The position numbers and the translations under genes were made by a program. Below, piece after piece: positions 3,589 through 29,022 of a stretch of DNA of 58,453 bases. Source of the stretch: a virus; IMG/VR virus record IMGVR_UViG_3300025141_000103, positions 1 to 58,453 of that record; one strand, written 5' to 3'. Position 1 is the first letter of the stretch. Every line of letters starts with the position of its first letter. The notes below the pieces were generated by a model that searched no databases, was not told the origin of the DNA, and saw nothing but the letters and a program-made list of their open reading frames with translations.

Positions 3589-3618
3589 AATATACGAATA
3601 AAATCATATATTTGTCAA
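3589..3618 (-). promoter_or_regulatory. Sigma70-like promoter, copy 1 of a four-member set
   Basis: On the minus strand: TTGACA (3613..3618), 18-bp spacer ending TTCG, then TATATT (3589..3594). The 10-mer AATATACGAA on the plus strand is identical in all four copies. The -35 lies inside the 3' end of the gene at 3604..4434; transcription should begin near 3582 and serve the genes from 3567 leftward. Confidence 0.75.
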
Positions 3619-4434
3619 GCTTTTTCTTAAATAATCACTAAAAACTTTATGTCCTTTTGTACTTGGATGTCCGTCTGGTATAAATAAGTTTTTACGTGAA
3701 TCTTCTTCTAAATACTTTGTGATACTTGTTAAGACATTATCTCTTATTATATTCTTTCTTAAATGTTTCCATGCCCAAGATTCTCCTATATCATCATCTA
3801 ATAACATTTCTTTATCGTGTTCAAACATAAATGTATAATATGGTTTAATATTATTAACTTCACAATAGTTCTGTAATGTTGTCCAATTCCATAACGATTC
3901 TATAACATCATTAGGAGTATTTGATATGTATTTGTAATACATCTTATCTAAATAATCAGAATTATCTTCAAACATACCCTCACTTTTATGTATTAAATAA
4001 TAACCATTTCTTTTCTTATTTAAAAGCTCTTCTCTATTGTCTGGTTTAGGCATCTCTTCACCATCTTCAAAAATAATTGGATTAAAATCTCGTGGCCCAA
4101 TGTCATATTGATGTATGTCATCACGATACCATAACCATTCATCTATTTCTGTAGATTCTCTGTCAATAAAAACTTGATGTCTGCATATACCACTCCATTG
4201 AACAATACATAAAATATCTTCACCTTTTACACCCTTATCCAATAGTCTACTGAGAGCTTCGATAACACTTCTAGCAATTAACATATTACCGTTACCACCT
4301 CTACCTCTATGAAGTGAACTGAAGTCTTCAGATAAAATACCATCGGATAAAAGTTGTTGTTGTAGATATTGATTCCAACCAGGCGAATCCCACAAACTAA
4401 AACTACAACCACTTGTAACTAAAGCTTTATACAT
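3604..4434 (-). CDS. SGNH/GDSL-like hydrolase, GCS variant
   Basis: 276 residues. Blocks: ALVTSGCSFS (Ser11), RGRGGNGN near residue 45, CIVQWSGICRH near 85, and DGHPSTKGH near the C-terminus (His256). It is more divergent than the 589/10516 pair, with an inserted acidic middle region (DGEEMPKPDNREELLN). The start overlaps the preceding small gene by eight bases. As in its relatives, block I carries Cys instead of Asp and the GxND block is replaced by W-S-G, so activity should be tested rather than assumed. It closes the glycan island on its left side. Confidence 0.72.
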   Translation of the reverse strand: MYKALVTSGCSFSLWDSPGWNQYLQQQLLSDGILSEDFSSLHRGRGGNGNMLIARSVIEALSRLLDKGVKGEDILCIVQWSGICRHQVFIDRESTEIDEWLWYRDDIHQYDIGPRDFNPIIFEDGEEMPKPDNREELLNKKRNGYYLIHKSEGMFEDNSDYLDKMYYKYISNTPNDVIESLWNWTTLQNYCEVNNIKPYYTFMFEHDKEMLLDDDIGESWAWKHLRKNIIRDNVLTSITKYLEEDSRKNLFIPDGHPSTKGHKVFSDYLRKSLTNI

Positions 4435-4651
4435 TCCTTATTTCCATCTTTAAGGATTCTAATGTATCTATAAATTCAGTTATTGTTAAGTCTACGTTTT
4501 GATCTGTTTTGATTGTGATTTTTGATAACATCTCTGGTGTTTCGTTCATAATTTTATACAACGCTTTTAATCCGTCACTCGGCCAAAATTTACCAAGACT
4601 CTCTTCACCTATCTCAACGTGAGAATCTTCTAATAATAAGTAGTATGTCAT
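4427..4651 (-). CDS. Hypothetical protein, 74 aa
   Basis: A small, slightly acidic protein (MTYYLLLEDSHVEIGEES...) with a predicted strand-helix pattern and no motif I recognise. Its start overlaps the stop of the family 2 glycosyltransferase by four bases and its stop overlaps the SGNH start, so all three are likely translated from one message. It could be an accessory subunit of either neighbour; that is only suggested by position. Confidence 0.5.
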   Translation of the reverse strand: MTYYLLLEDSHVEIGEESLGKFWPSDGLKALYKIMNETPEMLSKITIKTDQNVDLTITEFIDTLESLKMEIRNV

Positions 4652-5871
4652 AATTTGAAATCGTAACTTTTTAATGGTTTAGATTTAATTAAATCTTTTG
4701 TCTTGTGTTCTAATGTATTTATTGTAACTTCAAATATATCATGAGCAAAATTACCAACTTCATTATGTTCTTGTAATATCATTGGTAATTGAGATACAAA
4801 GTTTATATTTTCATTTGTAACTTTAGAACCATCAAACCTAACTATTATGTCATTATCTGGTTCAAGTGTGAGGTAATCTATCTTCTTTTCTAAATCATAT
4901 TCAGTTTTCTCTTGTTCATCTTTTATGTATTTATGTACACCGATTCCTATTGCATCAGAAGGCTTTTTGTCATGTCCTATCCAATCACCATAAATATTAC
5001 TACACCAGGGTTCTAATGCTCTCAATAATTCTACATTACAATTAGTTACTACCAATCCAATATTATACTTAGGTAACACTATCGGTTTCATCATAGCATC
5101 GTGCATTGGTGTAGTTCCCCACTTACGAATGAAGTTTCTCATATTTCTACTATTAGAATATTTCCATTCATCACTATCTTTACCAACACCATCTCTGAAT
5201 CTACTACCACGACTTGTCAAATGATATACGAAACCATCCCATATCTGTCTAAACTGATATCCGTTTAAATAAAATCTATTAAATATGTCTGAGTCTTCTC
5301 TTGATTGTGGAATGAATAGTTGGTCGTGTCCGTTTACATCAAAGTAATCCTCTTTGTACAAAGCCCACGGCGCAAATACTCCCTCTGTGTATTCACTTTT
5401 TGTGTATAATTCTACATCTTTGTTAAACTTCTCTTCATCAAACTCTTCAGGTTCAAATCCCAATGGTGATATTATCTTCTCTGGCCCATCTGGATGTAGT
5501 GGTGGTTCTATTCTTGTAGCACTAACTACAGTACCTCTCTCTAACCTATCCAATATCTTCTTATCCATGTCTTTTGATGGATACATATCAGCGTGAAAAA
5601 ACATAATCACATCATTAGTTGCTAACTCTTCTGCTAAGTAATCATACAATACAGTCAAACCTAATCTATCAGGACCAAAGTTTCTGTAGATGGATAGGTT
5701 CTTGTTCTTCTTCTTCTCTTCAACCATCCATTCCCAAGTTCCGTCAGTAGATGCATCATCAGCCATACAAATCTGATGTTCTTGACTACAATTCTTTCTT
5801 AATCCCTCATAAGCCCATTTTAGATATCTGAGATTATCTCTTGATGGTATTATGAAACTAATCTTTTCCAT
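4648..5871 (-). CDS. Family 2 glycosyltransferase (GT-A)
   Basis: 407 residues. The N-terminal 230 form a GT2 domain: SFIIPSRDNLRYL (first strand), CMADDASTDGTWEW (nucleotide-binding Asp pair near residue 38), MFFHADMYPS near 90 standing in for the DxD motif (HAD), and PQSREDSDIFNR near 190 carrying the catalytic acidic residues. Residues about 270-407 form a second region (YNIGLVVTNCNVELLRALEPW) with no clear match. It should transfer a sugar from a nucleotide donor to a glycan acceptor. It overlaps the SGNH gene 5858..6712 by 14 bases. Confidence 0.85.
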   Translation of the reverse strand: MEKISFIIPSRDNLRYLKWAYEGLRKNCSQEHQICMADDASTDGTWEWMVEEKKKNKNLSIYRNFGPDRLGLTVLYDYLAEELATNDVIMFFHADMYPSKDMDKKILDRLERGTVVSATRIEPPLHPDGPEKIISPLGFEPEEFDEEKFNKDVELYTKSEYTEGVFAPWALYKEDYFDVNGHDQLFIPQSREDSDIFNRFYLNGYQFRQIWDGFVYHLTSRGSRFRDGVGKDSDEWKYSNSRNMRNFIRKWGTTPMHDAMMKPIVLPKYNIGLVVTNCNVELLRALEPWCSNIYGDWIGHDKKPSDAIGIGVHKYIKDEQEKTEYDLEKKIDYLTLEPDNDIIVRFDGSKVTNENINFVSQLPMILQEHNEVGNFAHDIFEVTINTLEHKTKDLIKSKPLKSYDFKL

Positions 5872-6712
5872 TAAGTGCCTCTATTTCTTTTTGTATTTGT
5901 TTAGCCCATATGTCATGCTCATCTTTATTAGGATGAACTGGATAATGTTCTCTGAATGTTCTACCATCATCTCTTACATTATCTTGAATGTGATACTGAA
6001 ATGTTCTGTCGTAATCCACAAATGATGGGAATAATTCTAAATCTATTGCATTCTTCCAACCTTTTGGAATCCACCCAGCTTTCACCCAATGCTTCCAAAC
6101 CTCTTCATCTGAATAATCAGATTTTTTAGGATTAGTTGGAATACCTAATTTACCTTTTAATGCTTCCAAACCAGATTGTAGTAAACCACTATAACCATAA
6201 TGTTGGTGAGTATATGGATCCTCAAAAGCAAAAGACCTAAAGAAGTAATAATCAATATTATTAGACTTTAGGAAGTTCTGTAAAAGTATTACATTATTAA
6301 AATAATCTTGAAAAGAACCTAACTCAGACCAATGTTGTTCATAGTATGCCTTAGCCATATCTCTTTCTTGTCTCTCTTCAGTTGACTTTAAGTGATGATC
6401 CTCTTTGATACTCCAATTATTTACTGCTACCCATTTGGTTTGGAACGGACTAAAGAACTCTGGTCTATCTACTGCACCAGTCCAACCAATCAAAACAAAC
6501 ATATCATCCCACTCATCTTGATGTTCTAACAACCAATGAATTGTTACTCTTGATATTCTAGCATTAGAACCTTTCTTTATAGATAAGTTTTGCACCATCT
6601 TAAACCCAGCATTTGTAGCTAGTGTTGTTGCAAAGTTATCTTTTTTTGGATTCTTTAACTTATCACCAAAAACCCAACTACACCCATTTGTAACTAATAA
6701 TTTCTTATTCAT
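5858..6712 (-). CDS. SGNH/GDSL-like hydrolase, GCS variant
   Basis: 284 residues: LLVTNGCSWVFGD (Ser12), KKGSNARISRVTI near residue 48, VLIGWTGAVDRPEFFS near 78 (W-T-G instead of W-S-G), and VHPNKDEHDIW at the C-terminus (His260). With the partial copy at 1..278 it forms a NGCSW subgroup, distinct from the TFGCSFTD subgroup. It sits between a family 2 glycosyltransferase and an SDR epimerase and overlaps both. Acyl-ester chemistry on a sugar is the natural guess, unproven. Confidence 0.72.
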   Translation of the reverse strand: MNKKLLVTNGCSWVFGDKLKNPKKDNFATTLATNAGFKMVQNLSIKKGSNARISRVTIHWLLEHQDEWDDMFVLIGWTGAVDRPEFFSPFQTKWVAVNNWSIKEDHHLKSTEERQERDMAKAYYEQHWSELGSFQDYFNNVILLQNFLKSNNIDYYFFRSFAFEDPYTHQHYGYSGLLQSGLEALKGKLGIPTNPKKSDYSDEEVWKHWVKAGWIPKGWKNAIDLELFPSFVDYDRTFQYHIQDNVRDDGRTFREHYPVHPNKDEHDIWAKQIQKEIEALNGKD

Positions 6713-7616
6713 TGGTTTCCTTAATGTATTCTATTACATCTCTTGTTGGTTGCCAATCAAGTTGCTCTCTAGCTTCTGTGTCTGTACACAATGTCTCTCT
6801 CATTTCACCTCTCCACTCATCAACATACTTTCTTGGATAACCATCACCAAAAGCATCAGCTATCTCATTGATAGAATAGTTCTTACCTCTACCTAACTCA
6901 AACTCTTTAAAGTTATTTATTGCGTGAGTATGTGAATATCTTGAATCTAACATTGATGTATAACATCTCATTAATCCATCTACAATATCATCTACGTGAG
7001 TAAAGTCTCTTCTCTGTTCTCCATCACCTGTAATAGTTAATGGTTTATTCTTTTTGTATAAACTTTCAAATATACCAAGAACCGTACAATAATCACCATC
7101 AGTAAGTTGATGTGGTCCATAAACATTATAGAATCTACATATCGTAACAGCTAAATCATACACATTAGCATACATCTCACATAGTTGTTCACCTTGCCAC
7201 TTTGTAAATGTGTATGGATTAGAATATATGTCTCCATGTTTTGATGACGATCCTGCATAAACTACAGGTATATTTCCATTCTGTCTAGCCCACTCTAAAA
7301 TGTTTTGTGTTCCAGCAACATTACTTTCAAAAGATTGTGTTGGTGTTTTGAATGATGGTTGTATTCTTGCTCTAGCAGCCAAATGAAATATTATATCACA
7401 GTCTTCTATCATATCAGAATAATCTGTTATTTTAGATATATCTCCACCAAAGTATTTTACACCAGGGCAATCTATCTCATTCTCTGCTAAACCTGTAGAG
7501 TAATTATCTATTGAAGCTATTATATTCTCACGATATTCTACGTGGTTATTGTTACTTAATCTCTTTATTAGATTAGTTCCAATAAAACCACATCCTCCTG
7601 TTACTAATGCTCTCAT
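6705..7616 (-). CDS. NAD-dependent epimerase/dehydratase (extended SDR, nucleotide sugar)
   Basis: 303 residues, full length for an extended short-chain dehydrogenase. GGCGFIG at residues 7-13 binds NAD; IIFHLAARARIQPS near 75 is the strand and loop over the cofactor; AGSSSKHGD carries the catalytic Ser/Thr position; NPYTFTKWQGE supplies the Y-X3-K pair. RRDFTHVDDIV and the C-terminal segment fit UDP-sugar binding. The closest known enzymes are UDP-glucose 4-epimerases and related UDP-sugar epimerases or dehydratases; the exact substrate cannot be read. It overlaps the next glycosyltransferase by four bases. Confidence 0.88.
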   Translation of the reverse strand: MRALVTGGCGFIGTNLIKRLSNNNHVEYRENIIASIDNYSTGLAENEIDCPGVKYFGGDISKITDYSDMIEDCDIIFHLAARARIQPSFKTPTQSFESNVAGTQNILEWARQNGNIPVVYAGSSSKHGDIYSNPYTFTKWQGEQLCEMYANVYDLAVTICRFYNVYGPHQLTDGDYCTVLGIFESLYKKNKPLTITGDGEQRRDFTHVDDIVDGLMRCYTSMLDSRYSHTHAINNFKEFELGRGKNYSINEIADAFGDGYPRKYVDEWRGEMRETLCTDTEAREQLDWQPTRDVIEYIKETNE

Positions 7617-8545
7617 TGTTTACTCCAAAATTTATTCCAACGACTGAGGTAATGTTCCTCTGAATATTCTTCTTCCCATCTATCTCTAGCTATCTTAGAA
7701 CATTCATCATAGAAACCTGGCTCCTCTTTCAGTCTGACTGCTAACTCACGAGCTTTATGTAAATCACCCAAGTCTACAGTCAGATTAGGATGACATATCT
7801 CTTGTGTATCTAATCCTTTGTAACCAATACAAGGAATACCATGCCAAGCACAATTCATAGCAAATGTTCCAGCAGCGTGTGTTCTCATTAAATGTATACC
7901 TACCTCAAATTGAGATAAATTAGTTACCCACTCTTTCCACAACTGATAGTTTAGATAATTTATATCTTCTATCTGATTTTCCATCTTCTGCTTTCTACCC
8001 ATTGATGGTGCATATATCTCACACTCAGGTTGAAACACACTAGCCACCATATATGAATCGAATCCACCATACCAACTAACGAAGTTTCCACCCATAATTA
8101 CTTTACCAGTTCCACCTTGACTCTTTGGTGTCATACCATCGGTTAACATTAAACTTCTCATTACAAATACAGGTTTACTTGTAATACCTCTGTAGTATTT
8201 CTTATCACTTTCATTGTGTGCGAAGATATAATCAGCTTCCATCAAATGATTATGGAAATGAAATTGATGTGTCAATGCATAATCTTGAAAATACCAATGA
8301 GGACCTTCTTGTTGGATTGCTATCTTTTTACAATGTTGTTTCAAAGGTATCATGTTTATTTCTGGATTGGTTTTAGGAACTATAACAATACCCAAGTCAT
8401 AGTCTTGTGTAAACTTTGGTGCATGAATATTGTAATGGTCAGCGTCTAATGCACTCATCCATGCAAACTCTGTTCTCATATTGTTATGGGTTGTTCTATC
8501 TATCTTACCATCAAAACCCATTTCTGTAAAGTATGCTATTTTCAT
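7613..8545 (-). CDS. GT-B type glycosyltransferase
   Basis: 310 residues from the ATG at 8545 (MKIAYFTEMGFDGK), preferred because it overlaps the preceding stop as ATGA and follows AAGGAAGAG at good spacing. The N-terminal half looks like a Rossmann acceptor domain (YIFAHNESDKKYYRG). The C-terminal half has the donor-domain signature of GT4-like enzymes: VIMGGNFVSWYGG, FEVGIHLMRTHAAGTFAMNCAWHGIPCIGYKG, where a His/Ala-rich loop replaces the usual E-X7-E. It probably transfers a sugar from a nucleotide donor, but the donor motif is atypical. Confidence 0.7.
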   Translation of the reverse strand: MKIAYFTEMGFDGKIDRTTHNNMRTEFAWMSALDADHYNIHAPKFTQDYDLGIVIVPKTNPEINMIPLKQHCKKIAIQQEGPHWYFQDYALTHQFHFHNHLMEADYIFAHNESDKKYYRGITSKPVFVMRSLMLTDGMTPKSQGGTGKVIMGGNFVSWYGGFDSYMVASVFQPECEIYAPSMGRKQKMENQIEDINYLNYQLWKEWVTNLSQFEVGIHLMRTHAAGTFAMNCAWHGIPCIGYKGLDTQEICHPNLTVDLGDLHKARELAVRLKEEPGFYDECSKIARDRWEEEYSEEHYLSRWNKFWSKQ

Positions 8546-9372
8546 ACGACTGCTCTTCCTTTCATTTCTTCCCAATCTCTATTTTCTCTTACCCTATCAT
8601 TGACTTTTAATACTGCTTGTAGTAGTTCCATATCACCATAACCATTTACTATTGCTGATATATCTTTTGGTAAACAATGTCCACCAAATCCTAACTCACC
8701 ATCAGGACCTGGAACAGCCCAATGTGATTTACCAAGTCTCTCATCATATGTTGCATACTCTACTACTTTATCATAGTCAATATCTATCTCATCACACAAC
8801 ATCTTCATCTCATTAGCGAATGATACCTTAGTTCCCAAGAAACAGTTAATGAAATACTTTACGGTTTCTGCATACTTTGCATTTGTCTTCACGATTGTTG
8901 CGTGTGGAAATACTTTACTATAAACCTGTCTCAATAAACTTGTTCCTCTACGAACACCACCTAATATAATTCTACTCTGATTCTTAAAGTCTTCAATGAA
9001 GTTCATCTCTGTAAGAAACTCTGGATTGAATATAACATCAACACCCTTATATTTTCTATGCAACCTATCTGTAGTTCCTGGTGGAACTGTAGATTTAATT
9101 ACTACAGTTGGTTTGGGAATGTTTGCTAAATCCACTCTATCATCTATTTTTTTTACAACACTCTCAACTATATCTGTATGACAACTACCATCTTTGTTCA
9201 TTGGTGTTGGAACACATACAAATATAACTTGACAGGTTTCAACCAAATCAGTTAATTGAATGGTAGTTTTCCAACCATCATACTTATCGTATGTTTCTAC
9301 AGTATAATGTGGTTCAAACCCAACCTTGATTGCAGTTCCCACGTAACCTTGTCCTATTATTCCTATTTTCAT
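8542..9372 (-). CDS. Shortened UDP-glucose/GDP-mannose-type 6-dehydrogenase
   Basis: 276 residues from the ATG at 9372, which overlaps the upstream stop (ATGA). NAD site GIIGQGYVG at the N-terminus; VCVPTPMNKDGSCHTD; STVPPGTTD; FNPEFLTEMNFIEDF; AETVKYFINCFLGTKVSFANE with the conserved Lys (about 172); and GFGGHCLPKD with the catalytic Cys (about 233). All active-site blocks of the NAD and central domains are present. The family normally runs 390-450 residues; this protein stops about 40 residues after the Cys block, so the C-terminal UDP-binding domain is missing. Expected reaction: UDP-hexose to UDP-hexuronate with two NAD. Activity without the last domain is uncertain. Confidence 0.85.
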   Translation of the reverse strand: MKIGIIGQGYVGTAIKVGFEPHYTVETYDKYDGWKTTIQLTDLVETCQVIFVCVPTPMNKDGSCHTDIVESVVKKIDDRVDLANIPKPTVVIKSTVPPGTTDRLHRKYKGVDVIFNPEFLTEMNFIEDFKNQSRIILGGVRRGTSLLRQVYSKVFPHATIVKTNAKYAETVKYFINCFLGTKVSFANEMKMLCDEIDIDYDKVVEYATYDERLGKSHWAVPGPDGELGFGGHCLPKDISAIVNGYGDMELLQAVLKVNDRVRENRDWEEMKGRAVV

Positions 9373-10529
9373 TGTGAACATAAACCTTTCAACTCTTGTA
9401 TAAATATTTCAGTTGGTTTCTTAAATTCCAATAATATTTTACAATTGTGTTCTAACTTACTTTTCAAATTCATATTTTTCCAATCTAACTGACTAACTCT
9501 TTCAAGTTCTAACAAAATGGCATTACATCTATCATCTACATCTTCTATCTCATCATAACTCTCATCAAATATTTCTGAAAATGTATGAAATCCCCATTCT
9601 TTTAATTGTTTCAAGACACCTGGATAACACCATATAAGAAATGGGTGTCCGTAATAAATCGCTCTTGTTAACTTTTCTGATAAAAATACTGTTGGTGTTT
9701 TGAATCCCGTAGGGTTATTCATTGGTAAAAAATTAGCGGATTCTGGTACAAGTGAAAAATATGAATCATCATAATATTGTTCTAAAACATCTGTTTCAAA
9801 ATCTGACTCTGTAGTTATTTCGTTTTCAACCTCTTTTTGAAATTTATCCATATCTACATGACTATTTGGTAATAACTTATTTAATGCCATATTAGATACA
9901 TAACTCTTATTATTTAATGACTCACTTTTTACAATATAGTTATACATTCTTTCTCTATACTCATCTCTTCTACCAAATAATGAAATGAATGTTTTATTTG
10001 GATTTTTTGGCTTTACTTCTCTTAACCCCTTTCTTCTATAATCTGATAATAGTATATTAATGTACATTGGATAACCAAGTAAATTTATTTTACTATCAAA
10101 GTTATGGTATTCAAACCACTCATCATATGCTTCCCTACAATTCAAATCATTCGTTATAAATAAAATCTTATCTTGTGGTACTGAAGTTCTTTCGCACATC
10201 AAATGAATATATCTTATAACATTACACTCTAAACCATCTTTAGTCCTAAATTCTTCATATCTCCATGTTGATTCTGTGGGTTCTACTATTGCTATAAACT
10301 TTTTATCTGATTTTAAAAATTCTTCATATGTCAACTTGAAAAGATCATCTCTAAAAATACTTTCTAAATTTAAAGTATACATAGGTTCTAAATGTGGATA
10401 TAGAATAGTATTCTCTGTAAGAATATCCCAACTGTCATATAAAAAATGTGGTTTCAGATATTCAAACCATTCTTGATAATTAGAATAATGTTTGTATTCT
10501 TCTACAAATTGTCCATCAAAGAATTTCAT
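9369..10529 (-). CDS. Exostosin/fucosyltransferase-like glycosyltransferase (tentative)
   Basis: 386 residues from the ATG at 10529 (MKFFDGQF), chosen over 10544 because GGAG lies seven bases upstream. The C-terminal third carries TVFLSEKLTRAIYYGHPFLI followed by PGVLKQLKEWGFHTF, a pattern seen in exostosin-like and GT10-like enzymes where the conserved SEK and a following aromatic-Pro-Phe segment contact the nucleotide sugar. The N-terminal half (TENTILYPHLEP, CERTSVPQDKILFITND) resembles a Rossmann domain. It overlaps the SGNH gene by 14 bases. The glycosyltransferase call rests on one motif block, so moderate confidence. Confidence 0.58.
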   Translation of the reverse strand: MKFFDGQFVEEYKHYSNYQEWFEYLKPHFLYDSWDILTENTILYPHLEPMYTLNLESIFRDDLFKLTYEEFLKSDKKFIAIVEPTESTWRYEEFRTKDGLECNVIRYIHLMCERTSVPQDKILFITNDLNCREAYDEWFEYHNFDSKINLLGYPMYINILLSDYRRKGLREVKPKNPNKTFISLFGRRDEYRERMYNYIVKSESLNNKSYVSNMALNKLLPNSHVDMDKFQKEVENEITTESDFETDVLEQYYDDSYFSLVPESANFLPMNNPTGFKTPTVFLSEKLTRAIYYGHPFLIWCYPGVLKQLKEWGFHTFSEIFDESYDEIEDVDDRCNAILLELERVSQLDWKNMNLKSKLEHNCKILLEFKKPTEIFIQELKGLCSQ

Positions 10530-11271
10530 ATAGATGCTCCGCATATTTATAATGTGATTCTACAGTTGGATGAATATTATCTTCCGCACGTGTGAGCTTA
10601 TTCAAGTCAACCCATTCAGCTTCTCCACAAAATTTTTCCTTACCTATCTGTTCAAAATGAAATTTATCCCAATCTATTAAGTTTTCAAATGGTTCTGCTG
10701 ATTTATACTTACCAAATGATCGTGAAAATATGTCTTTGAAAGTTACAAATTTGTATGGAATATTTTTTAGTTTTAATAGATTTTGTGTAGCCAGCATATT
10801 GTTTAATGATTTGAGATAAGAATTTTCGAAAGTGTGGTAGTTTTTAAAAAATGTCCTCCAAAACCATTCAAAAAATTTTGAACCACTAACATAATCAGTA
10901 ATACTGAGAGTAGAATCGGTTACACTTGGTATTGGCATTCCTCCACTATGAAACCAATCTCCCGATGCATTTGTGATATCTGTATCTGTATAACCAAGTT
11001 CCATAGCTTCTTCATTAGTAAAATTATGTTCATATTTACTTACAACCAAATCCTCTCTATCTATACCCGACCACATTACAACTACATAAACATCCTGTTC
11101 CTCTAACTTTGATACCGCTTCTACTATCTTACTAGAAATATAAAAATTGCCTGCAGACCCCTTACCATAATTTGTAAGTTCTCTCCCCATCAATTCTGCT
11201 AAACGATTAGGCCAACCAACACCATGTTGTCCATCTGTAAAACTACACCCGAAAGTTAATAATTGTTTCAT
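10516..11271 (-). CDS. SGNH/GDSL-like hydrolase, GCS variant
   Basis: 251 residues from the ATG at 11271 (MKQLLTFGCSFTDG; GAGGAG eight bases upstream; ATGA overlap with the previous stop). With this start Ser10 falls at the same position as in the paralog at 589..1317. Blocks: GKGSAGNFYISSKI, VYVVVMWSGIDRED, and DNIHPTVESHYKYAEHL with His234. The middle section (NYHTFENSYLKSLN, IPYKFVTFKDIF, DWDKFHF) also tracks the 589 paralog, so this is a true duplicate pair now separated by about 9 kb. It is flanked by two glycosyltransferases. Confidence 0.75.
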   Translation of the reverse strand: MKQLLTFGCSFTDGQHGVGWPNRLAELMGRELTNYGKGSAGNFYISSKIVEAVSKLEEQDVYVVVMWSGIDREDLVVSKYEHNFTNEEAMELGYTDTDITNASGDWFHSGGMPIPSVTDSTLSITDYVSGSKFFEWFWRTFFKNYHTFENSYLKSLNNMLATQNLLKLKNIPYKFVTFKDIFSRSFGKYKSAEPFENLIDWDKFHFEQIGKEKFCGEAEWVDLNKLTRAEDNIHPTVESHYKYAEHLYEIL

Positions 11272-12053
11272 TCGTACCACTCCTCATAAGTTCTTTTCAT
11301 CCAATACTCTGCGTGTCTTTCATTCTTTGGTATAGCATTGAAATGAAATATGTAACCTGTATCTTTGTATATTAACTCATCCTTAGACCAATCATTATGT
11401 CCTGGTATGTGTAACATATTCTTTCTAAATAAATCTGTTAAGTTGAATCTCTCTGGCAAGTACGTCATCTTTATGTCGTGTTGTTTTACCAAGAAGTTGA
11501 CACAAGTTTGTCCTACGCCAGGTATTGGTAAACCATCATACTTCTCTTTATTTCTGACTTCATACAATCTATCTACATTCTCTAAGTAAAACTCTTGTAT
11601 TGTCTTGAAGAATGGTTTATGCTTTTTGTTAGCTATAATAAAACCTGTATTGAAATATTCCCATACCTTTGGTTTCTCCATATCAGGAAACATAAAGTGT
11701 CCCCATGCATTTATACTTCTTGTAACCCATTCGAAACAACCATTGTTAACTACAGCAGTATATTCGTGGTTAGTTCTTTCAAAGAAGTTAGGACAATCAG
11801 GATGAACTATAGTGTCTGCATCAATAATCAATACTTGGTCGTAATCTACCTCATTATGTTCTAAGATGTCAAACACCCATTCTCTCTGATATATGATTGG
11901 AAAGTTGTTGTGGTCCATTATTGGTTCAGTCCACTCAACTAATTCAACATCATGTTTATCACACCATGTCTGCCAGCTCTTTACTGAGTAATGATAAGGT
12001 GTTGACCTACCATTTCCTAAATCTATATTTGGTATAAATACTACGTTCTTCAT
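11268..12053 (-). CDS. GT-A fold glycosyltransferase (DxD type)
   Basis: 261 residues. VVFIPNIDLGNG starts the nucleotide-binding fold; VLIIDADTIVH near residue 75 is the DxD metal/nucleotide motif; EYFNTGFIIANKKHK and GVGQTCVNFLV match the acceptor-side blocks of GT8-like and related capsule glycosyltransferases; FHFNAIPK near the end provides the late His. It is paralogous to 15752..16501 (IDADT/VDVDT, YFNTGFII/YFNCGIIL, WNLTHM-like end). Its first 23 bases are nearly identical to those of the neighbouring sulfotransferase-like gene. Confidence 0.75.
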   Translation of the reverse strand: MKNVVFIPNIDLGNGRSTPYHYSVKSWQTWCDKHDVELVEWTEPIMDHNNFPIIYQREWVFDILEHNEVDYDQVLIIDADTIVHPDCPNFFERTNHEYTAVVNNGCFEWVTRSINAWGHFMFPDMEKPKVWEYFNTGFIIANKKHKPFFKTIQEFYLENVDRLYEVRNKEKYDGLPIPGVGQTCVNFLVKQHDIKMTYLPERFNLTDLFRKNMLHIPGHNDWSKDELIYKDTGYIFHFNAIPKNERHAEYWMKRTYEEWYE

Positions 12054-19982: not shown

Positions 19983-20193
19983 TGTTTTCCTCCTGAAATA
20001 CTTCAACCATTAATACATTAGGATCGTGTATCAAAACCATTCTACCATCTTTGGTAAAGAATTTTGTAAATTGTCCTTGCTCAATAGTATCTGTATCTAT
20101 GTTTCTAATTGTTTTTCTGTAACCACCCTTGAAGTGTATAATTTGAGTTACATACTTCCCTTGTTTAGTTACACTTGACTCAAGATTCTTCAT
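19972..20193 (-). CDS. Small beta-rich hypothetical protein
   Basis: 73 residues from the ATG at 20193 (MKNLESSVTKQG), AAGG five bases upstream; a GTG at 20199 is the alternative. YVTQIIHFKGGYRKTI, GQFTKFFTKDGRMVLIH and VLMVEVFQEEN form a likely small beta barrel or sheet. The last codons overlap the aminotransferase start and contain its AGGAGG, so translation of the two is probably coupled. Function unknown. Confidence 0.6.
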   Translation of the reverse strand: MKNLESSVTKQGKYVTQIIHFKGGYRKTIRNIDTDTIEQGQFTKFFTKDGRMVLIHDPNVLMVEVFQEENNGD

Positions 20194-21004
20194 ACTCACC
20201 TTTCAAATGTTCGATCATATTATCAATATCATTTTTACTTTTTATTTTTTTAAAAACTTGACTTGAAACTTCGTGGTTTTCTTTTGCTATATTGTCTATA
20301 TTTAAACCTGTCCTTTCAGCTCTAATCCTATCAGGTCGTGTAATCATATTTCTTGAACCAGCCCAATGATGATAAATCAAGTCATCGTAGATTGCATAAT
20401 ATAATGGATGTAAATCAATCTTATTACTTCTTGTCAATGGATAGTAATCATATCCACGTTCTTTCAACCAATTGATTGTTCCACCCCACCAATTGTCATT
20501 CTTGTCTTTAATTATGTTTCTTAGATAATCAGTTAAGTTATCCTCTATTATATGTTTAGCCTTGAATGCCATGAACATCGGATGTGGTATCAGATATAAT
20601 GGGTCTCTATCCCATTCGTGCATCGGTTCTTGTGCTGATACAAATGGATACTCTTCTAATTTCTTTTCTAAGAAGTCTCCCATCGGTGCGATTGGAAAAG
20701 CATCTGAATCTAACAATAGTATTGTATCGTCTTTCTTCACTTCAAAGTTCTCTAATACATAATCTATTAGTTTACCCATTGAGTAAGTCCAATGTTGTGC
20801 TCCTGATATAGCACCATCAAACTTATCTTTATGCTTATCATAACTTATGGTGGTATCACTATATTTAACACCATTTTTAAACTTAAATGGTTCTTCACCT
20901 AATCTTGCATAAACCTTGTATGGTTCTGATATAAACCTAGCTAACTCTCTCTTTTGAATGTCAACCCACTTGTCACTCAGATGTAATGTAAGTATATGTA
21001 ACAC
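20180..21004 (-). CDS. GT-A fold glycosyltransferase
   Basis: 274 residues from a GTG at 21004 that overlaps the preceding TAG (TAGTG), with GGAGG upstream. ILTLHLSDKWVDIQKREL opens the fold, ILLLDSDAFPIAPM near residue 97 is a clear DxD (DSD), IPHPMFMAFKAKHI and WWGGTINWLKERG follow, and YHHWAGSRNM near 218 supplies a late His as in DxD glycosyltransferases. Donor and acceptor unknown. Confidence 0.72.
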   Translation of the reverse strand: MLHILTLHLSDKWVDIQKRELARFISEPYKVYARLGEEPFKFKNGVKYSDTTISYDKHKDKFDGAISGAQHWTYSMGKLIDYVLENFEVKKDDTILLLDSDAFPIAPMGDFLEKKLEEYPFVSAQEPMHEWDRDPLYLIPHPMFMAFKAKHIIEDNLTDYLRNIIKDKNDNWWGGTINWLKERGYDYYPLTRSNKIDLHPLYYAIYDDLIYHHWAGSRNMITRPDRIRAERTGLNIDNIAKENHEVSSQVFKKIKSKNDIDNMIEHLKGEYEES

Positions 21005-22656
21005 TACCCAACCTCCTGTAATAAATCAAATCCCCATTGTTCCATTGATATATGATTAAATGGATAACCCTTATAACTTTTCATCTCAATAAACTTATCA
21101 ACACCATCTTTACCCTCTTGTTTTATCTTCCTATTCTCTTCTAAAGTTCTATGTGCTGATGGTTTCACCATATGCATTCTACTGAAATAAAATCTTGGTT
21201 CTGCAAAGTTATAACCACCAATGTTCACACTATAGTTATACACCAAATCATCATCATCCTCACAACCAAAGAATCTAAACTTACCACTATCTTTACCAAA
21301 TGGATGTATCTCTTGTGGTAACTCTATATTCTCATCTTCAATTTGTTTTCTTAACTTACTACTGAATACTAAATCTAAATCACCATTCTTATTCTTTCTT
21401 GCATCTACTCCCATAACTGCTAAGATAGCACTATTACATATTGCATACTCTTTCTTTGGAAAACCCATTATATCCATTATCTCAAGATAGTTTATGTAAC
21501 GAAGTGGATTTTCTACATTTCCCTTAAATACCTCTGCTTCGGGCATATAGAATGGTATGTATTCCTTACCATTGATTAACCTACCAATCATAGCAACTGC
21601 TCTGTGATATCCATGCTTGAGAAAACCACCAAAGAAGTTTACAGGATCGTCAACCAAAGCTACTTGTATCTCCTCATCTGTCATCATTTCTAAAGAATCA
21701 TAATATTCTTTAGTCATATTTTCCCAACCTTTTTCGTGATGTCCCTCAACATTATTTCTAAACTCAGCCCACATACAATTCCAATACTGATGGTTTTTAT
21801 TTGTTAGTTTACTTTCAGCTTCTTTTCTATTCTTCTCATCTGAAAAGTATTCTACAGCTTCTCTTACAGTTTTGATTTGTTTATCATTATGTATAATCTC
21901 TTTACCACCACTACCATGTTGTAATTCCATATTCAAAAAGTATTCTAAGTTGATTGGAGCAGTAGCTAATAAGTTTCTAACAAAGTGTTGATAATTCTTT
22001 TGTGCCATAAAATCACTAAAAAACTTAGGTGATTCTAAGTAATCCCCATCTACTCTACTACCAGCAGCTTCTCTTGTGTAAGTGTTATAGTGATGTTGAT
22101 TTAAATCATCATACCGATTACAATCATAAACTCCCTCTAAATCAATTAATGTTGGCTTACCATCATACTCATATGTATGATACTCACAAAAGTCATAAGC
22201 AAAATGATTACTCTGTATGGTTTTTGCTTTTATTCTTGTGAACATTTCATTAAAGTGCTTATCTGAGTTTGGTGTAAGTCTAACTAATCTTGATCCAGTA
22301 TCAGCTCTGTCTGTCTCATCTTTTATGAATAGTTGTTGACACTCTTCAGTTACATATCCTCTACAGATATTATCCTCATCGTAAATCATACCAACAAAAT
22401 TTGGAACGATTGTGCTATCATAGAAACCACTTGCGAATGCAGTTGGTAATGTATCTTTTCTTATATAATCTTTATCCCATACTTTGACAAAGTATTTATC
22501 TGTTTGATAGATAGTTCTATTGTGGTTTTCACTACCCCAACGGCTATCTTTGTGTTTGACTTGTTTGTAACTATTGAAATCTAAATCTTCATATTTAAAG
22601 ACACCATAAACGTCTCCAATCAAAGATTCAAACTCAAATATTTGAGTAAAGTTCAT
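21004..22656 (-). CDS. Kinase-like / nucleotidyltransferase-like fusion protein
   Basis: 550 residues that look like three joined parts. Residues about 40-185 resemble an aminoglycoside-phosphotransferase-type kinase: YFVKVWDKDY with Lys58, a hinge-like YVTEECQQ, NHFAYDFCEYH, and LIDLEGVYD as a divergent metal-binding loop. Residues about 335-372 (GGFLKHGYHRAVAMIGRL, then YIPFYM) recall the GxHR turn of ParB/sulfiredoxin-type domains. Residues about 405-435 (AICNSAILAVMGVDARK, GDLDLVFSS) look like a minimal nucleotidyltransferase with a D-x-D pair. A kinase plus nucleotidyltransferase could activate a sugar or alditol for the glycan genes around it. Assignments are by motif only. Confidence 0.55.
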   Translation of the reverse strand: MNFTQIFEFESLIGDVYGVFKYEDLDFNSYKQVKHKDSRWGSENHNRTIYQTDKYFVKVWDKDYIRKDTLPTAFASGFYDSTIVPNFVGMIYDEDNICRGYVTEECQQLFIKDETDRADTGSRLVRLTPNSDKHFNEMFTRIKAKTIQSNHFAYDFCEYHTYEYDGKPTLIDLEGVYDCNRYDDLNQHHYNTYTREAAGSRVDGDYLESPKFFSDFMAQKNYQHFVRNLLATAPINLEYFLNMELQHGSGGKEIIHNDKQIKTVREAVEYFSDEKNRKEAESKLTNKNHQYWNCMWAEFRNNVEGHHEKGWENMTKEYYDSLEMMTDEEIQVALVDDPVNFFGGFLKHGYHRAVAMIGRLINGKEYIPFYMPEAEVFKGNVENPLRYINYLEIMDIMGFPKKEYAICNSAILAVMGVDARKNKNGDLDLVFSSKLRKQIEDENIELPQEIHPFGKDSGKFRFFGCEDDDDLVYNYSVNIGGYNFAEPRFYFSRMHMVKPSAHRTLEENRKIKQEGKDGVDKFIEMKSYKGYPFNHISMEQWGFDLLQEVG

Positions 22657-23254
22657 TTTGCTTTATCTGCTTCTCTATAGTTTTAGGATGATATAAGGAT
22701 AGTTCTTCGTGTGGTGGTAAATGTGCATATGTTTTACAACCATCAATATACTCATGAACCTTTCGTGTCCACCTGATATCTTCTCTGTTTCTAAATACTC
22801 TTGCTTGGTAATCTGGATAGTTTACCCAACCTTTTTCTGATACTCTCCATCCCCATCTTTGAATCCATTCTTGAGTTAAACCCTCTACTGTATTTACTCT
22901 TGGTAGCCATACTAAATCTACATCATTCATTTCTAATATAGTATGTATTTGTGCCATCAATATTTCATGTGGAATTTCATCTGCATCTAAATGAAATATA
23001 TAATCACCACTACTCATTTCTATTGTATGATTTTTTAAATCTGAAAAGTTGTCGTTAAAATCAAATTTGTGCCAACTGAACTCACCATTTACTGAATGTG
23101 TTCTTAGATAGTCTTCAACACCTTTAGAACCATTCTTAGAATCATAAGTGATAACAATTTCATCTTGTAACTCTTTGTGTTTTAATAAAAATGTAACTAA
23201 TCTCTGTATCTCAGCTTCTTCGTTACAAACTGTTATTCCGTAACTTATTTTCAT
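22634..23254 (-). CDS. Family 2 glycosyltransferase, short
   Basis: 206 residues. SYGITVCNEEAEIQRLVTFL opens a GT2 fold, IVITYDSKNGSKG is the nucleotide-side Asp region, IFHLDADEIPHEI near residue 92 is the metal-binding DAD, and YQARVFRNREDIRWTRKVHE near 155 matches WaaE/SunS-like inverting enzymes, where the R-x-W-x3-x-H-E segment lines the catalytic site. At about 200 residues it is a minimal catalytic domain with no membrane part. Overlaps the kinase-like gene by 23 bases. Confidence 0.82.
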   Translation of the reverse strand: MKISYGITVCNEEAEIQRLVTFLLKHKELQDEIVITYDSKNGSKGVEDYLRTHSVNGEFSWHKFDFNDNFSDLKNHTIEMSSGDYIFHLDADEIPHEILMAQIHTILEMNDVDLVWLPRVNTVEGLTQEWIQRWGWRVSEKGWVNYPDYQARVFRNREDIRWTRKVHEYIDGCKTYAHLPPHEELSLYHPKTIEKQIKQNELYSNI

Positions 23255-23255
23255 A

Positions 23256-23714
23256 TTATCCTATAAACTTAGAAGACACTATCTTTGAATAATCATATGC
23301 CAAAAGTCTAACTTGACTCATATTTGACATTTTATATGTTCTGTAAGCATTATCCACCAATCCACCAACTTTTGTTAGTTTTACATCGTAGAATTTAAGT
23401 GGGTCTCCTCTACGTTCTCCTAATTCCCATTGCCCCTCTTGAATTGCACCTGTTCCAACTACAGTAGCTAATCTTCTTAGATGTTGGTCTGAAACTAAAT
23501 CCATACTTAGAGCATGAAGTTTTCTGACACTAAAATTTCCACCATATGGATACATTCCTGTAACTAATGCTACAACCTCTTGGTTTGGTTGAGCATCTCC
23601 AGACTTAGCAACTTTTTTATATCTAAATTGCAACATTTGACCTGTTTCAATCGCACTTCTTGGTATAGTCTTTCGAGCTGATACTCTTGATTTATGTAAA
23701 GCGATGAATCCCAC
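23256..23714 (-). CDS. Hypothetical beta-rich protein
   Basis: 152 residues. IETGQMLQFRYKKVAKSG, VVALVTGMYPYGGNFSVRKLHALS, LKFYDVKLTKVGGLV and YRTYKMSNMSQVRLLAYDY suggest a compact mostly-beta domain like small RNA- or DNA-binding barrels. I recognise no catalytic motif. It follows directly on the zinc-ribbon gene (one-base overlap) and precedes the glycosyltransferases, so it may be a phage core hypothetical around which the sugar genes were inserted. Confidence 0.55.
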   Translation of the reverse strand: MGFIALHKSRVSARKTIPRSAIETGQMLQFRYKKVAKSGDAQPNQEVVALVTGMYPYGGNFSVRKLHALSMDLVSDQHLRRLATVVGTGAIQEGQWELGERRGDPLKFYDVKLTKVGGLVDNAYRTYKMSNMSQVRLLAYDYSKIVSSKFIG

Positions 23715-24199
23715 TATTTACCCTTTTTATCTAAGTCTTTAATTATTCCCATATCTTGACACGCTTTGAAAAATTCAAACTTACCATAAGCTTGTGCATT
23801 TTCCACGTCAAGTCTCTTATCATAATTATTATAATTTGCACGTTCTTCTTCAGGTATTTCAACAACTTTTGCATATTTCCAAACATAATTCTTTTTATCT
23901 GTAGCTTTGAATGCTGCTTTGTCTTGTGGGTCTTCATCAGGATATATTATACCTAACTCACCCATATTGATAACACAAGGAAACCAAACAATACCTTTAG
24001 TTTCATCATTGTATTGTAAGTCTTGAACTAACTGAGGACTTGCATTCATATTATCAAGTAACTCAACACTACCAGCTCTGTATCTTGAGTCACTCATAAA
24101 TCCACAATTAAAACACATATAACTACTGAAGTTTTCTTGTATCTCTTCGAAACAAGTATCTGTGTCTTTACATACTGGACAAACTATTACTCTTTCCAT
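23714..24199 (-). CDS. Zinc-ribbon protein
   Basis: 161 residues with a C-terminal charged tail. VIVCPVCKDTD and YMCFNCGFMSDS give two C-X2-C knuckles about 20 residues apart near the N-terminus, a zinc ribbon. The rest (VWFPCVINMGELGIIYPDED, VWKYAKVVEIPEEER) is beta-rich. Similar N-terminal ribbons occur in T4-like marine phage hypothetical proteins; the function is not known to me. Start and stop overlap both neighbours by one base. Confidence 0.65.
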   Translation of the reverse strand: MERVIVCPVCKDTDTCFEEIQENFSSYMCFNCGFMSDSRYRAGSVELLDNMNASPQLVQDLQYNDETKGIVWFPCVINMGELGIIYPDEDPQDKAAFKATDKKNYVWKYAKVVEIPEEERANYNNYDKRLDVENAQAYGKFEFFKACQDMGIIKDLDKKGK

Positions 24200-25566
24200 T
24201 ACATCTTCCTCAACTTAGGTAGTTTTATAACTTCTTTTACTTTTGGTTTTTGTGGTGGTTTTATTGCACCTGTTTGTCCACCATCTATCTTCTTCAACTT
24301 AGGTAGTTTAAGACTTACTGCTTGTGGAACATCACCAATCATTCTATCAACTATCTCAACAAACTTTTCACCCATCTTACTTCTTGTGAACTTAGTTTTA
24401 TTTGACTTTGCTACTTGATTGAATATAGGTGTATATTTCTTGTAGTTCAAAAATACATCTTTCATCTTTGCTGATGCTTTACTGTAGTTTACACCAAACC
24501 AAGCCATACCATCAACAAACATATCCTTTGGAAATGAACCTTTAGGAACTTGAACCAAACTACCCTCAAGTGCTGTGCTTAAACTTGGTGGTAAGAAATC
24601 TAAATGTCCACTCCATGCTGGATATATAATTGGTTTACCTGTTAGTGATGCTTCAAGTAATGGTCTACCAAATCCCTCACCATGTGTGAAAGAAACATGA
24701 GCTTTTACTTTCGGATGATTGTATAACTCATTCATTTCTTCGTCTTCGAAATCACCATGCATCAGATAAATATTTGGAAATATCTTAGCATCTACACTAT
24801 CTTTGATAGTTCTAATCTTACTTAAAATATCTTCTCTGTCTATTACTGAGAATGTAGCACTACTTGTTTTTAGGATTAGTGCTGGTCTCTTCTTCTTACC
24901 CTTGTTCTTAAACGTTTCGATGAATGTTTTAATCAACATACCAACGTCTTTTCTATCTTGAGTAAGATTACCACTTAACCAATGTCCTGTAAATAAGAAA
25001 CAAAATGACTCTGATATCTTATTCATTTCAGTAACTAAATCTTCACTAAACTTATTTGTCTTACCATAGATTTTTTCATCATAACCCTCAAATAGAACTT
25101 CGATAGGTGTCTTAACTCCATGAACACCAACGACTTCTTTACCTTGCTTTTCCTCATACTTAGTTTGTAGTATCATTTCTTTTACAAACTCAGCTGGAAC
25201 TATATTTAAATCCATTCTATTACAACCATCAACCCAATGTTTAGGTATAGCTGTTGATTCTAAACCTGCAGTAATACCCATATTCTTCTTACCAATCTTC
25301 TGAAACTCATTTGGTACTGTAACTTGAATATGTAAATCAGGTTGTTTTTCTAACTTACCCTCATATATCATTCTATCTAATATGAGTTTATGGTCTGGAT
25401 TCTGTTCGTTTAATGCATTCATCGGTGTGTTTCCCCAACGAAGTGATGCTATTCTTAAATCATACTTGTCAGATTTTATTAACTCTAAAGCTAAATCTCT
25501 TGCGTGAGCTCCATAACCACTTCGTGTAGCTACTGGACCTTGAAACAAAATAAAAGGTTTTGTCAT
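24199..25566 (-). CDS. GT4-type glycosyltransferase (GT-B)
   Basis: 455 residues. LFQGPVATRSGYGAHARDLAL is the donor-side glycine-rich start of GT4 enzymes; VSFTHGEGFGRPLLEASLTGKPIIYPAWSGH near residue 300 is the E-x-F-G-x2-x2-E block that binds the nucleotide sugar, with both acidic residues. The last 70 residues are Lys/Pro-rich (LPKLKKIDGGQTGAIKPPQKPK) and contain a repeated KLPKL-K segment, probably a flexible tail. It is paired with 25575..26954, another GT4 protein, and the two may be an old duplication. Confidence 0.85.
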   Translation of the reverse strand: MTKPFILFQGPVATRSGYGAHARDLALELIKSDKYDLRIASLRWGNTPMNALNEQNPDHKLILDRMIYEGKLEKQPDLHIQVTVPNEFQKIGKKNMGITAGLESTAIPKHWVDGCNRMDLNIVPAEFVKEMILQTKYEEKQGKEVVGVHGVKTPIEVLFEGYDEKIYGKTNKFSEDLVTEMNKISESFCFLFTGHWLSGNLTQDRKDVGMLIKTFIETFKNKGKKKRPALILKTSSATFSVIDREDILSKIRTIKDSVDAKIFPNIYLMHGDFEDEEMNELYNHPKVKAHVSFTHGEGFGRPLLEASLTGKPIIYPAWSGHLDFLPPSLSTALEGSLVQVPKGSFPKDMFVDGMAWFGVNYSKASAKMKDVFLNYKKYTPIFNQVAKSNKTKFTRSKMGEKFVEIVDRMIGDVPQAVSLKLPKLKKIDGGQTGAIKPPQKPKVKEVIKLPKLRKM

Positions 25567-25574
25567 TTTAACTC

Positions 25575-26954
25575 CTATGCCTTATATAAGGTGAATCGTT
25601 TACGTGGTGTCCACTTTTCAAATGCAGTGTCCATGTCTTTAATGAATCGGTTGCTCATGTTCTCTGCTGTCATACCTATCTCTTCCATTTGAACAAACTC
25701 AACACCTTTTTCACCACATTCTTTTCTTTTCTCAGCACCCATGTCATAAAAATGCTTAATACCATCTGCAGCATCTTCGTAACGTGGTCTGTCATCAAAG
25801 ATATATGGTGTCGGTGGTGAACCTTGTAAGGAAAGATTAGATGGAAATACAGGATATGCCCAATCACCATGCTCTTTGTATCTACCTCTGTGGTTAGATT
25901 GAAACTCATCAGTATAATCATCTACTGTAAGATAAGAACCATCTTCTTTTTTGAAACCACATTGGTCTTGTAATCCACCTGTAACATTAACCACGATAGG
26001 TGTTCCACACATTAGAGATTCACAAGTTCCCAATCCAAATCCTTCATTAGATGCGATATTAATTGTAACGTCTGCTATGTTATACATCCAACACATCTGA
26101 TTGTTATCCAATTTCTCATTTGAGAATATAACATCATAATCGGGACACATCTCAGCAACTACTGCTGGCAAGTCAGTTCCATTGTCATCAACTGGTTGAG
26201 TGTGCATTATTAATGCACATTTTTTAGATTCATCTTTTGGTAACATATCACAAAATGTTTTAAATGCCATAACTACATCACCAGGTAATTTTCTACGAAT
26301 ATTTCTGTTGTTCCAAAATACTACAAAATCATATTGTTTACCACCAAGAATATGTTGCTTATACTTTTTAAGTTTATCATAATCTTGATGTAATGTATCT
26401 ACTGGTTTAAAATCTTTATGATTTATACCATGTGGAATATAGGTATTATCCCAATCGGTTCTTGGTTTCTTCTGACATACATTATCTACAATATTAACTG
26501 TTTGTCGTGATATGTTCATAATCAAATCACAACTCTCATAATATGGTTCATTCCATCTTGGATAAGGTAAGTTATCCCATATATTGTAGTAGAAGATAGG
26601 AACATTCTGTCTTACTTCATGTTCCATATTATATAACCACTGCCAAAATCTTGGGTCTGTATAGTGTAGGATAGCATCTGGTTTTTCCATTCCCATTATA
26701 CTTCTCAATATTTCATCATTTCCATAACCACTTATTGGATATATCTTTAGATATGCATCTTTAATACCGTAGTCTTTAGATATAGCTTCAGATAAATCTA
26801 CAACGTTTCCCTCTTCAGGATGTTTTATTGCTCCACCTATCTGAACCCAATCATATCTATCTAATGTACCAACAACAAATTCTCTTGACATCGTTCCAAC
26901 ACCACTTGACATTCTCAAGTCATCTGATAGTAATAATATCTTCTTTTTTGCCAT
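25575..26954 (-). CDS. GT4-type glycosyltransferase (GT-B)
   Basis: 459 residues from the ATG at 26954 (MAKKKILLLSDDLRMSSGVG), with AGG seven bases upstream. LLSDDLRMSSGVGTMSREFV is the N-terminal acceptor/donor loop, and NIASNEGFGLGTCESLMCGTPIVVNVTGGLQDQ is the E-G-F-G-x2-x2-E nucleotide-sugar block. HPEEGNVVDLSEAISKDYG and HYTDPRFWQWLYNMEHEV resemble GT4 enzymes acting on glycan chains. The first ATG follows the stop of the ribbon-helix-helix gene immediately, so it is probably co-transcribed with it. Confidence 0.87.
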   Translation of the reverse strand: MAKKKILLLSDDLRMSSGVGTMSREFVVGTLDRYDWVQIGGAIKHPEEGNVVDLSEAISKDYGIKDAYLKIYPISGYGNDEILRSIMGMEKPDAILHYTDPRFWQWLYNMEHEVRQNVPIFYYNIWDNLPYPRWNEPYYESCDLIMNISRQTVNIVDNVCQKKPRTDWDNTYIPHGINHKDFKPVDTLHQDYDKLKKYKQHILGGKQYDFVVFWNNRNIRRKLPGDVVMAFKTFCDMLPKDESKKCALIMHTQPVDDNGTDLPAVVAEMCPDYDVIFSNEKLDNNQMCWMYNIADVTINIASNEGFGLGTCESLMCGTPIVVNVTGGLQDQCGFKKEDGSYLTVDDYTDEFQSNHRGRYKEHGDWAYPVFPSNLSLQGSPPTPYIFDDRPRYEDAADGIKHFYDMGAEKRKECGEKGVEFVQMEEIGMTAENMSNRFIKDMDTAFEKWTPRKRFTLYKA

Positions 26955-26955
26955 A

Positions 26956-27147
26956 TTAGTACCTACTACCACTTTGTGTTAGATTACTGTAGGTCATTAT
27001 TTTTTCTTGAAATTTCATATCTGTACAATATAAATCCATTGAACGATTAACTAATTTTTGAAGAGTAAACTCTTCCTCTATACTCAGTCCTTTAAATTTT
27101 TTATATAAATCGGTAAGAACTTTAACCGATGTTAGTTTGCTTTCCAT
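26956..27147 (-). CDS. Ribbon-helix-helix (Arc/MetJ-like) DNA-binding protein
   Basis: 63 residues from the ATG at 27147 (MESKLTSVKVLTDLYKKF), chosen over 27162 because GGAG lies nine bases upstream. A short strand (LTSVKVL), then two helices (DLYKKFKGLS, FTLQKLVNRSMDLYCTD) fit the ribbon-helix-helix fold, usually a dimeric repressor binding operator DNA through the strand. It lies at the head of the glycosyltransferase group and just after the SLOG gene, so it may regulate early transcription of this region. No operator was identified. Confidence 0.6.
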   Translation of the reverse strand: MESKLTSVKVLTDLYKKFKGLSIEEEFTLQKLVNRSMDLYCTDMKFQEKIMTYSNLTQSGSRY

Positions 27148-29017: not shown

Positions 29018-29022
29018 GTCAA
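28993..29022 (-). promoter_or_regulatory. Sigma70-like promoter, copy 2 of the set
   Basis: Minus strand TTGACA (29017..29022), 18-bp spacer ending TTCG, TATATT (28993..28998). The -35 overlaps the stop codon of the Mom-like gene and the -10 lies inside the small 43-codon gene. Transcription should start near 28986 and carry the nuclease, SLOG, RHH and following genes. Confidence 0.7.

Follow-up and report, generated by a model that had tools for sequence, protein, structure and literature searches.

The island and its scaffold

The virus record IMGVR_UViG_3300025141_000103 of IMG/VR is a 58-kb fragment, analysed here over its full 58,453 nucleotides (the window). Between positions 3604 and 26972 its minus strand carries 25 open reading frames (ORFs) in an unbroken tight run, many of them overlapping by a few bases, and this run is a glycan island. 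A first-pass annotation had placed in the interval 3604-27147 a UDP-hexose dehydrogenase, a Gfo/Idh oxidoreductase, a DegT aminotransferase, two epimerases of the short-chain dehydrogenase/reductase (SDR) type and a set of glycosyltransferases (GTs), and Pfam matches agree with all of these. Its count of about ten GTs could not be confirmed: Pfam backs four (ORFs 4648, 22634, 24199 and 25575, named by their first coordinate; 24199 is under its cut-off), and the remainder are GT-like by eye only. Two features had escaped it, an FAD-binding (DAO) domain fused to the Gfo/Idh ORF and the lack of a C-terminal domain in the dehydrogenase.

What gives such an island its shape? A common gene order recurs at 15 viral loci bearing homologues of the fusion: a PD-(D/E)XK nuclease, two GT4-like genes, a zinc-ribbon gene, a small protein, a GT2 and then variable genes. 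The scaffold of the Flavobacterium phage immuto (vB_FspM_immuto, Immutovirus, NC_055915) is syntenic (PD-(D/E)XK, GT, GT, zinc-ribbon, GT2, ..., GT2), with identities of 44/50/44/29/47/47% along it; the cassettes in between differ. Of this scaffold, the first half is also present in Microcystis phage Mel-JY01, and Rhodothermus phage RM378 shows weaker traces. Among 49 viral loci with the fusion, scaffold GTs were found in 34-39. The island occupies one fixed position, where exchangeable cassettes lie between the genes of a conserved scaffold. The scaffold genes, with the small protein among them and the upstream boundary, are:

28023..28898 (-): PD-(D/E)XK nuclease, upstream island boundary; PF12705, 2e-19; same position in immuto, 44%
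25575..26972 (-): GT4-like; PF00534, E 1.5e-6, above cut-off; immuto 50%; 34/49 fusion loci
24199..25566 (-): GT4-like; PF00534 weak, E 6.6e-4, under cut-off; immuto 44%
23714..24199 (-): zinc-ribbon-like small protein; DUF2387-like, under cut-off; adjoins GTs in immuto and most relatives too
23256..23714 (-): unassigned small protein between zinc-ribbon and GT2; no Pfam or PHROG match; orthologues in the closest relatives
22634..23254 (-): GT2; PF00535, 3.7e-10; immuto 47%; 39/49 fusion loci
7613..8575 (-): GT-like by eye, semi-conserved; no Pfam or PHROG match; homologues in 30/49 fusion loci
4648..5871 (-): distal GT2; PF00535, 1.3e-11; immuto 47%

A close relative, contig L002, whose fusion is 90% identical, served for gene-by-gene comparison. 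The ratio of nonsynonymous to synonymous divergence (dN/dS) is 0.03-0.31 for retained genes, with two exceptions (9369, whose allele is 32% identical with a ratio of 0.62, and 14364), and 3604, 10516 and 12050 have no counterpart there. Island genes are mostly under purifying selection.

The putative uronate genes and the aminotransferase

The dehydrogenase, the two SDRs, the small protein that accompanies one of them and the DegT aminotransferase are:

8542..9381 (-): compact nucleotide-sugar 6-dehydrogenase; PF03721 and PF00984 only; TIGR03026 above cut-off; GGHCLPKD
6705..7616 (-): SDR, epimerase type; PF01370, 2.2e-39; SSSKHGD motif without the dehydratase Glu
17416..18435 (-): SDR, C4-epimerase type (like GalE or UDP-GlcA epimerase); PF01370, 3.3e-43; SSMSVYG motif
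18432..18836 (-): small protein, probably helical; no family above cut-off
18837..20006 (-): DegT-family sugar aminotransferase; PF01041, 3.5e-76

The dehydrogenase has its NAD domain, its central domain and the active-site Cys (within GGHCLPKD); the C-terminal UDP-binding domain (PF03720) is absent by Pfam. Most of 56 viral loci with a homologue encode 273-293 residues, so the loss is a stable trait and not a local truncation. In 31 of these 56 loci an SDR best matching the 6705-7616 type lies within 6 kb. Both SDRs look like C4-epimerases from their motifs and scores. The nearest PDB entry of 17416-18435 is a UDP-glucose 4-epimerase (1.7e-43), and its SSMSVYG lacks the Glu of dehydratases and decarboxylases; both proteins are without the Glu that E. 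coli RffG, E. coli ArnA and the dehydratase of the related locus L194 have in this motif. An ArnA-type decarboxylase was considered for the SDRs and ruled out by motif and scores. The small protein at 18432-18836 is co-conserved with the SDR in L057, L068, L182 and L200.

Does the DegT protein belong to a 3-amino-uronic pathway? The first-pass annotation had proposed a near-complete route to 3-amino-3-deoxy-uronic nucleotide sugars of the Wbp/Wlb kind. The broad enzyme classes are the same, and the likeness to Pseudomonas aeruginosa WbpA-B-E-D-I extends to the superfamilies only (UDP-sugar dehydrogenase, Gfo/Idh, DegT). Orthologues of WbpB, WbpD and WbpI, however, were not found here. The fusion at 12670-14382 matches WbpB with an E value of 0.36, whereas in a Marinoscillum contig taken as positive control (L017) the Gfo/Idh protein matches WbpB at 1.3e-105 and the DegT matches WbpE at about 1e-90. 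In addition to this genuine WbpB-WbpE set, L017 encodes a Gfo-DAO fusion of its own, and its WbpB and the Gfo/Idh of the fusion are therefore different proteins. No WbpD N-acetyltransferase or WbpI 2-epimerase was matched by Pfam among the island ORFs of this incomplete genome. The nearest PDB entry of the island DegT is ArnB (1.9e-47, against ~1e-19 for WbpE). Its scores resemble those of ArnB/PseC (C4 type) and not WbpE, and on these sequence comparisons a C4-type enzyme is more likely than a C3-type one. Read by eye, the neighbours of DegT orthologues include a gene resembling GDP-mannose 4,6-dehydratase in L194 and one resembling RmlC in L198, in keeping with amination at C4. Among relatives the three key genes also assort independently. 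Of nine that bear the fusion, G001-G003 and G009 have no DegT of full length, and G004/G005 have DegT but not the dehydrogenase. Dehydrogenase and DegT are within 6 kb of each other in 2 of 24 loci. Taken with the scores, this makes the Wbp/Wlb route very improbable.

The Gfo/Idh-DAO fusion

The ORF at the centre of these comparisons encodes two oxidoreductase domains:

12670..14382 (-): Gfo/Idh (NAD)-DAO (FAD) fusion oxidoreductase; PF01408, 9e-12, and PF01266, 3e-9

It is conserved over its full length in 14 aligned viral sequences, and its AlphaFold2 model has a predicted TM score (pTM) of 0.81. The DAO half finds GlpD, NikD and relatives as structural matches (Z about 26); GlpD, NikD, sarcosine oxidase and L-2-hydroxyglutarate dehydrogenase (L2HGDH) all have this fold, which does not tell the substrate. 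Gfo/Idh and DAO are fused in about 50 viral loci, with no homologue of the fusion in the cultured-phage collection. In bacterial and archaeal genomes DAO is mostly a separate gene. Gfo/Idh immediately adjoins it in 18 of 35 such loci (Fisher p 2e-14), 16 of the 18 pairs having been found with a phage-derived profile. The neighbours at these cellular loci are mostly GT4 genes, with DegT rare (3/128); therefore the Gfo/Idh-DAO pair is a glycan-locus module independent of DegT.

What could such a pair do? DprE1/DprE2 form a two-step epimerase from an FAD enzyme and an NAD enzyme. The likeness is that of an FAD enzyme paired with an NAD enzyme in glycan metabolism; the folds are unrelated to DAO and Gfo/Idh, whose activity here is putative. 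We tentatively regard Gfo/Idh-DAO as an uncharacterised enzyme that tailors sugars with two cofactors (NAD and FAD), perhaps as a keto-sugar synthase or as an epimerase working by oxidation and reduction. Phages, candidate-phyla bacteria and archaea would share it, as a fusion in phages and as two neighbouring genes in most cells; paired oxidation and reduction by the two halves is proposed. A narrow literature search found no described Gfo/Idh-FAD pair. The island itself is of a known kind, and the fusion appears to be its newest component, seemingly undescribed. Recycling of 2-hydroxyglutarate (2-HG) by the DAO half was also considered and is kept only as speculation: WbpB makes D-2-HG (PMC8651671), whereas the 2-HG enzymes of DAO fold that the fold search brought up are L-2-HG dehydrogenases, and that search cannot discriminate.

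Other genes of the island

The remaining island genes are:

21004..22656 (-): modular; N-terminal part kinase-like by eye, C-terminal domain (~300 aa) conserved; no family match
20180..21004 (-): GT-like by eye; no significant family match
16497..17447 (-): GT-like by eye; weak DUF6564 match only
15752..16516 (-): GT8-like by eye (DVDT motif); no Pfam match; homologues in 27/49 fusion loci
14764..15777 (-): GT-like by eye; no Pfam match; homologues in 24/49 fusion loci, no relative in the phage collection searched
14364..14771 (-): small protein, probably helical; 100% identical to L002, few silent changes
12050..12673 (-): sulfotransferase-like by eye only; no family match; no L002 orthologue
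11268..12053 (-): GT8-like by eye (DADT motif); homologues in 32/49 fusion loci
10516..11280 (-): SGNH/DUF6071-like; weak DUF6071 match, under cut-off; GCSF and DNIHPTVESH motifs
9369..10544 (-): possibly GT-B-like; no family match; L002 allele divergent (32%)
5858..6712 (-): SGNH/DUF6071 enzyme; PF19547, 2.4e-15, above cut-off; catalytic motifs
3604..4434 (-): SGNH/DUF6071-like; PF19547, 1.1e-5, slightly under cut-off; GCSF and DGHPSTKGH motifs

The SGNH assignment made at first pass is borne out in 3604, 5858 and 10516 by DUF6071 matches and, at motif level, by the catalytic Ser (GxS, here GCS) and HPx..H. Two other early names found no backing: nothing in Pfam, PHROG or NCBIfam matches the sulfotransferase at 12050-12673 or the kinase/nucleotidyltransferase at 21004-22656, and the predicted structure of the second is also without a significant PDB match. 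Among relatives of 21004-22656 the C-terminal domain is constant and its partner domain is shuffled (domain names by eye). The kinase-like part is N-terminal here and C-terminal in L077, L081, L084, L085 and L096; in L070, L073, L094 and L111 a GT8-like N-terminal domain takes its place. The GT8-like gene at 11268-12053 is among the most constrained in the island (dN/dS 0.03). In 14364-14771 there is no amino-acid change relative to L002 and the proportion of synonymous differences (pS) is 0.05, against 0.2-0.4 in most neighbours, which suggests a recent transfer tract.

Outside the interval lie two more glycan-type genes, which the first-pass annotation had also missed:

34664..35338 (-): SGNH-like; weak DUF6071 match; GCSY motif; DTSHPYSEGY read from the sequence
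31944..32786 (-): GT-like by eye; no Pfam match

L002 and immuto have orthologues of 31944-32786 inside their islands; in L187, L190, L195 and L196 an orthologue lies upstream of DegT, adjoining it or nearly so.

Where does the glycan go?

The first-pass annotation had seen no lipid-linked initiating transferase, flippase or polymerase, and this stands: Pfam finds none among the island ORFs, and PF01943, PF02397 and PF04932 (Polysacc_synt, Bac_transf, Wzy_C) are absent from the nine relatives (about 1.1 Mb, including the 216-kb contig G001), in which positive controls were detected. The island encodes no predicted multi-pass membrane protein; its sole hydropathy peak is the FAD-binding beta-alpha-beta stretch of the fusion, at residue 229. 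Together these absences argue against capsule export. The initiating transferase, flippase and polymerase or ligase of a Wzx/Wzy capsule or O-antigen locus were not found in the examined records, and decoration of an existing acceptor is, as had been suggested, likelier than a capsule.

Our favoured explanation, to which we give about even odds, is a cassette-type glycan-assembly island of large aquatic tailed phages, whose glycan is made in the host cytosol and most likely placed on a virion protein. The conserved scaffold GTs would build an inner glycan and the swappable cassettes would change its outer sugars. One cassette would supply UDP-uronate through the compact UDP-glucose dehydrogenase and the C4-epimerase SDRs; DegT would probably act at C4 of a host-supplied 4-keto-sugar nucleotide; the two-domain NAD/FAD oxidoreductase and the SGNH (de)acylases would be further cassettes. 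Soluble enzymes could assemble all of this in the cytosol without phage genes for a lipid carrier, flippase or polymerase. Precedents exist for glycosylated virions, in mycobacteriophages, and for glycans on DNA (both as cited within PMC12619734), and modification of the host surface has been proposed for cyanophages (PMC7824862). A virion protein is the likeliest acceptor by inference only; we likewise infer the substrates, the sugar order, the host phylum and the benefit, which may lie in evading receptors, defence or competing phages.

Several points weigh against this explanation. The acceptor is putative, and the target may instead be the host surface. Most of the putative GTs have no family match in Pfam or PHROG. 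The DegT tree has unresolved deep branches, with ArnB, WecE and WbpE not separated relative to the phage clade, so it is scores and neighbourhoods that speak for C4; next to the dehydratase in L194 there is also a second DegT, and no 4,6-dehydratase was recognised in the window. The profile used for cellular adjacency had as its seed 16 adjacent genes that the phage-derived profile had picked out. The window is a fragment and the relatives may be fragments too, so absences are no proof.

Could the enzymes modify a surface polysaccharide of the host during infection, for example blocking the attachment of competing phages? Jumbo-phage clusters with GTs and SDRs, that of cyanophage P-SSM2 among them, have been so interpreted (PMC7824862). 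Marinoscillum has a related Gfo/Idh-DAO fusion in a chromosomal glycan locus (two contig pieces, 52-63%), and some GTs could use host lipid-linked intermediates in the cytosol. The missing multi-pass membrane proteins and export families count against it. The ORFs scanned showed no integrase either, and long-term persistence with a view to superinfection exclusion is therefore not indicated. We consider host-surface modification unlikely.

A quite improbable third target is the phage DNA, with glycans hypermodifying hydroxymethylated pyrimidines. Work cited within PMC12619734 reports viral GTs by which DNA is hypermodified with a variety of glycans, and two Mom-like DNA-modification genes lie close by (29019-29651, phrog_1384, 1e-53; 33120-33881, PF25680, 2.6e-46). 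Mom-type modification, however, requires no GT, and it would be unusual for DNA glycans to come with tailoring genes of the uronate and SGNH kinds. The thymidylate synthase/hydroxymethylase family is present in G003-G005 and weak in G002; the 216-kb relative G001 has no member, which argues against DNA glycosylation there.

Related systems and host

Among the closest known systems is the glycan locus of immuto. It shares the genomic site and the scaffold order, and its cassettes, with a DegT and an epimerase, lie between the GT2 and the distal GT2. They differ in content: a methyltransferase, a pilin-glycosylation-type protein and an only distantly related DegT, with neither the Gfo-DAO fusion nor the dehydrogenase in the locus. 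Immuto also carries a queuosine/7-deazaguanine DNA-modification set (L117:801-7808; QueD, QueE, FolE, DpdA and QueF as annotated). With jumbo-phage clusters of the P-SSM2 type the island has in common multiple GTs and SDR sugar-nucleotide enzymes that are polymorphic between relatives; those clusters carry PfkB kinases and HIGH-type nucleotidyltransferases (PMC7824862), whereas here a C4-type DegT, the compact dehydrogenase, SGNH enzymes and the Gfo-DAO fusion are found. By description the island also recalls the moraphages, large Bacteroidota-associated aquatic phages with four core GT orthogroups (PMC12619734).

Which host carries this phage? The scaffold GT 25575 has its nearest annotated relatives in immuto (Flavobacterium), Mel-JY01 (Microcystis) and RM378 (Rhodothermus), and Bacteroidota are the predicted hosts of the moraphages with their four core GT groups (PMC12619734); together these make a Bacteroidota host likely. 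The Marinoscillum contigs were considered as a phage-host link and set aside: L017 starts with an apparent ribosomal protein S1, the other ORFs of L017 and L051 show no match to the phage scaffold, and L017 was taken as chromosomal. Elsewhere in the window, the product of 44669-45961 has a Laminin_G_3 (ConA-like lectin) domain and may belong to the tail or serve in adhesion.

The analysis corrects a plausible but unsupported pathway call and brings out the Gfo/Idh-DAO pair and the compact UDP-sugar dehydrogenase as biochemical targets. It also shows, in aquatic phages of a widespread group, the conserved scaffold and the site at which glycan cassettes are exchanged. A cultured relative is at hand in immuto, on Flavobacterium sp. 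LMO8, where virion glycosylation is directly testable.

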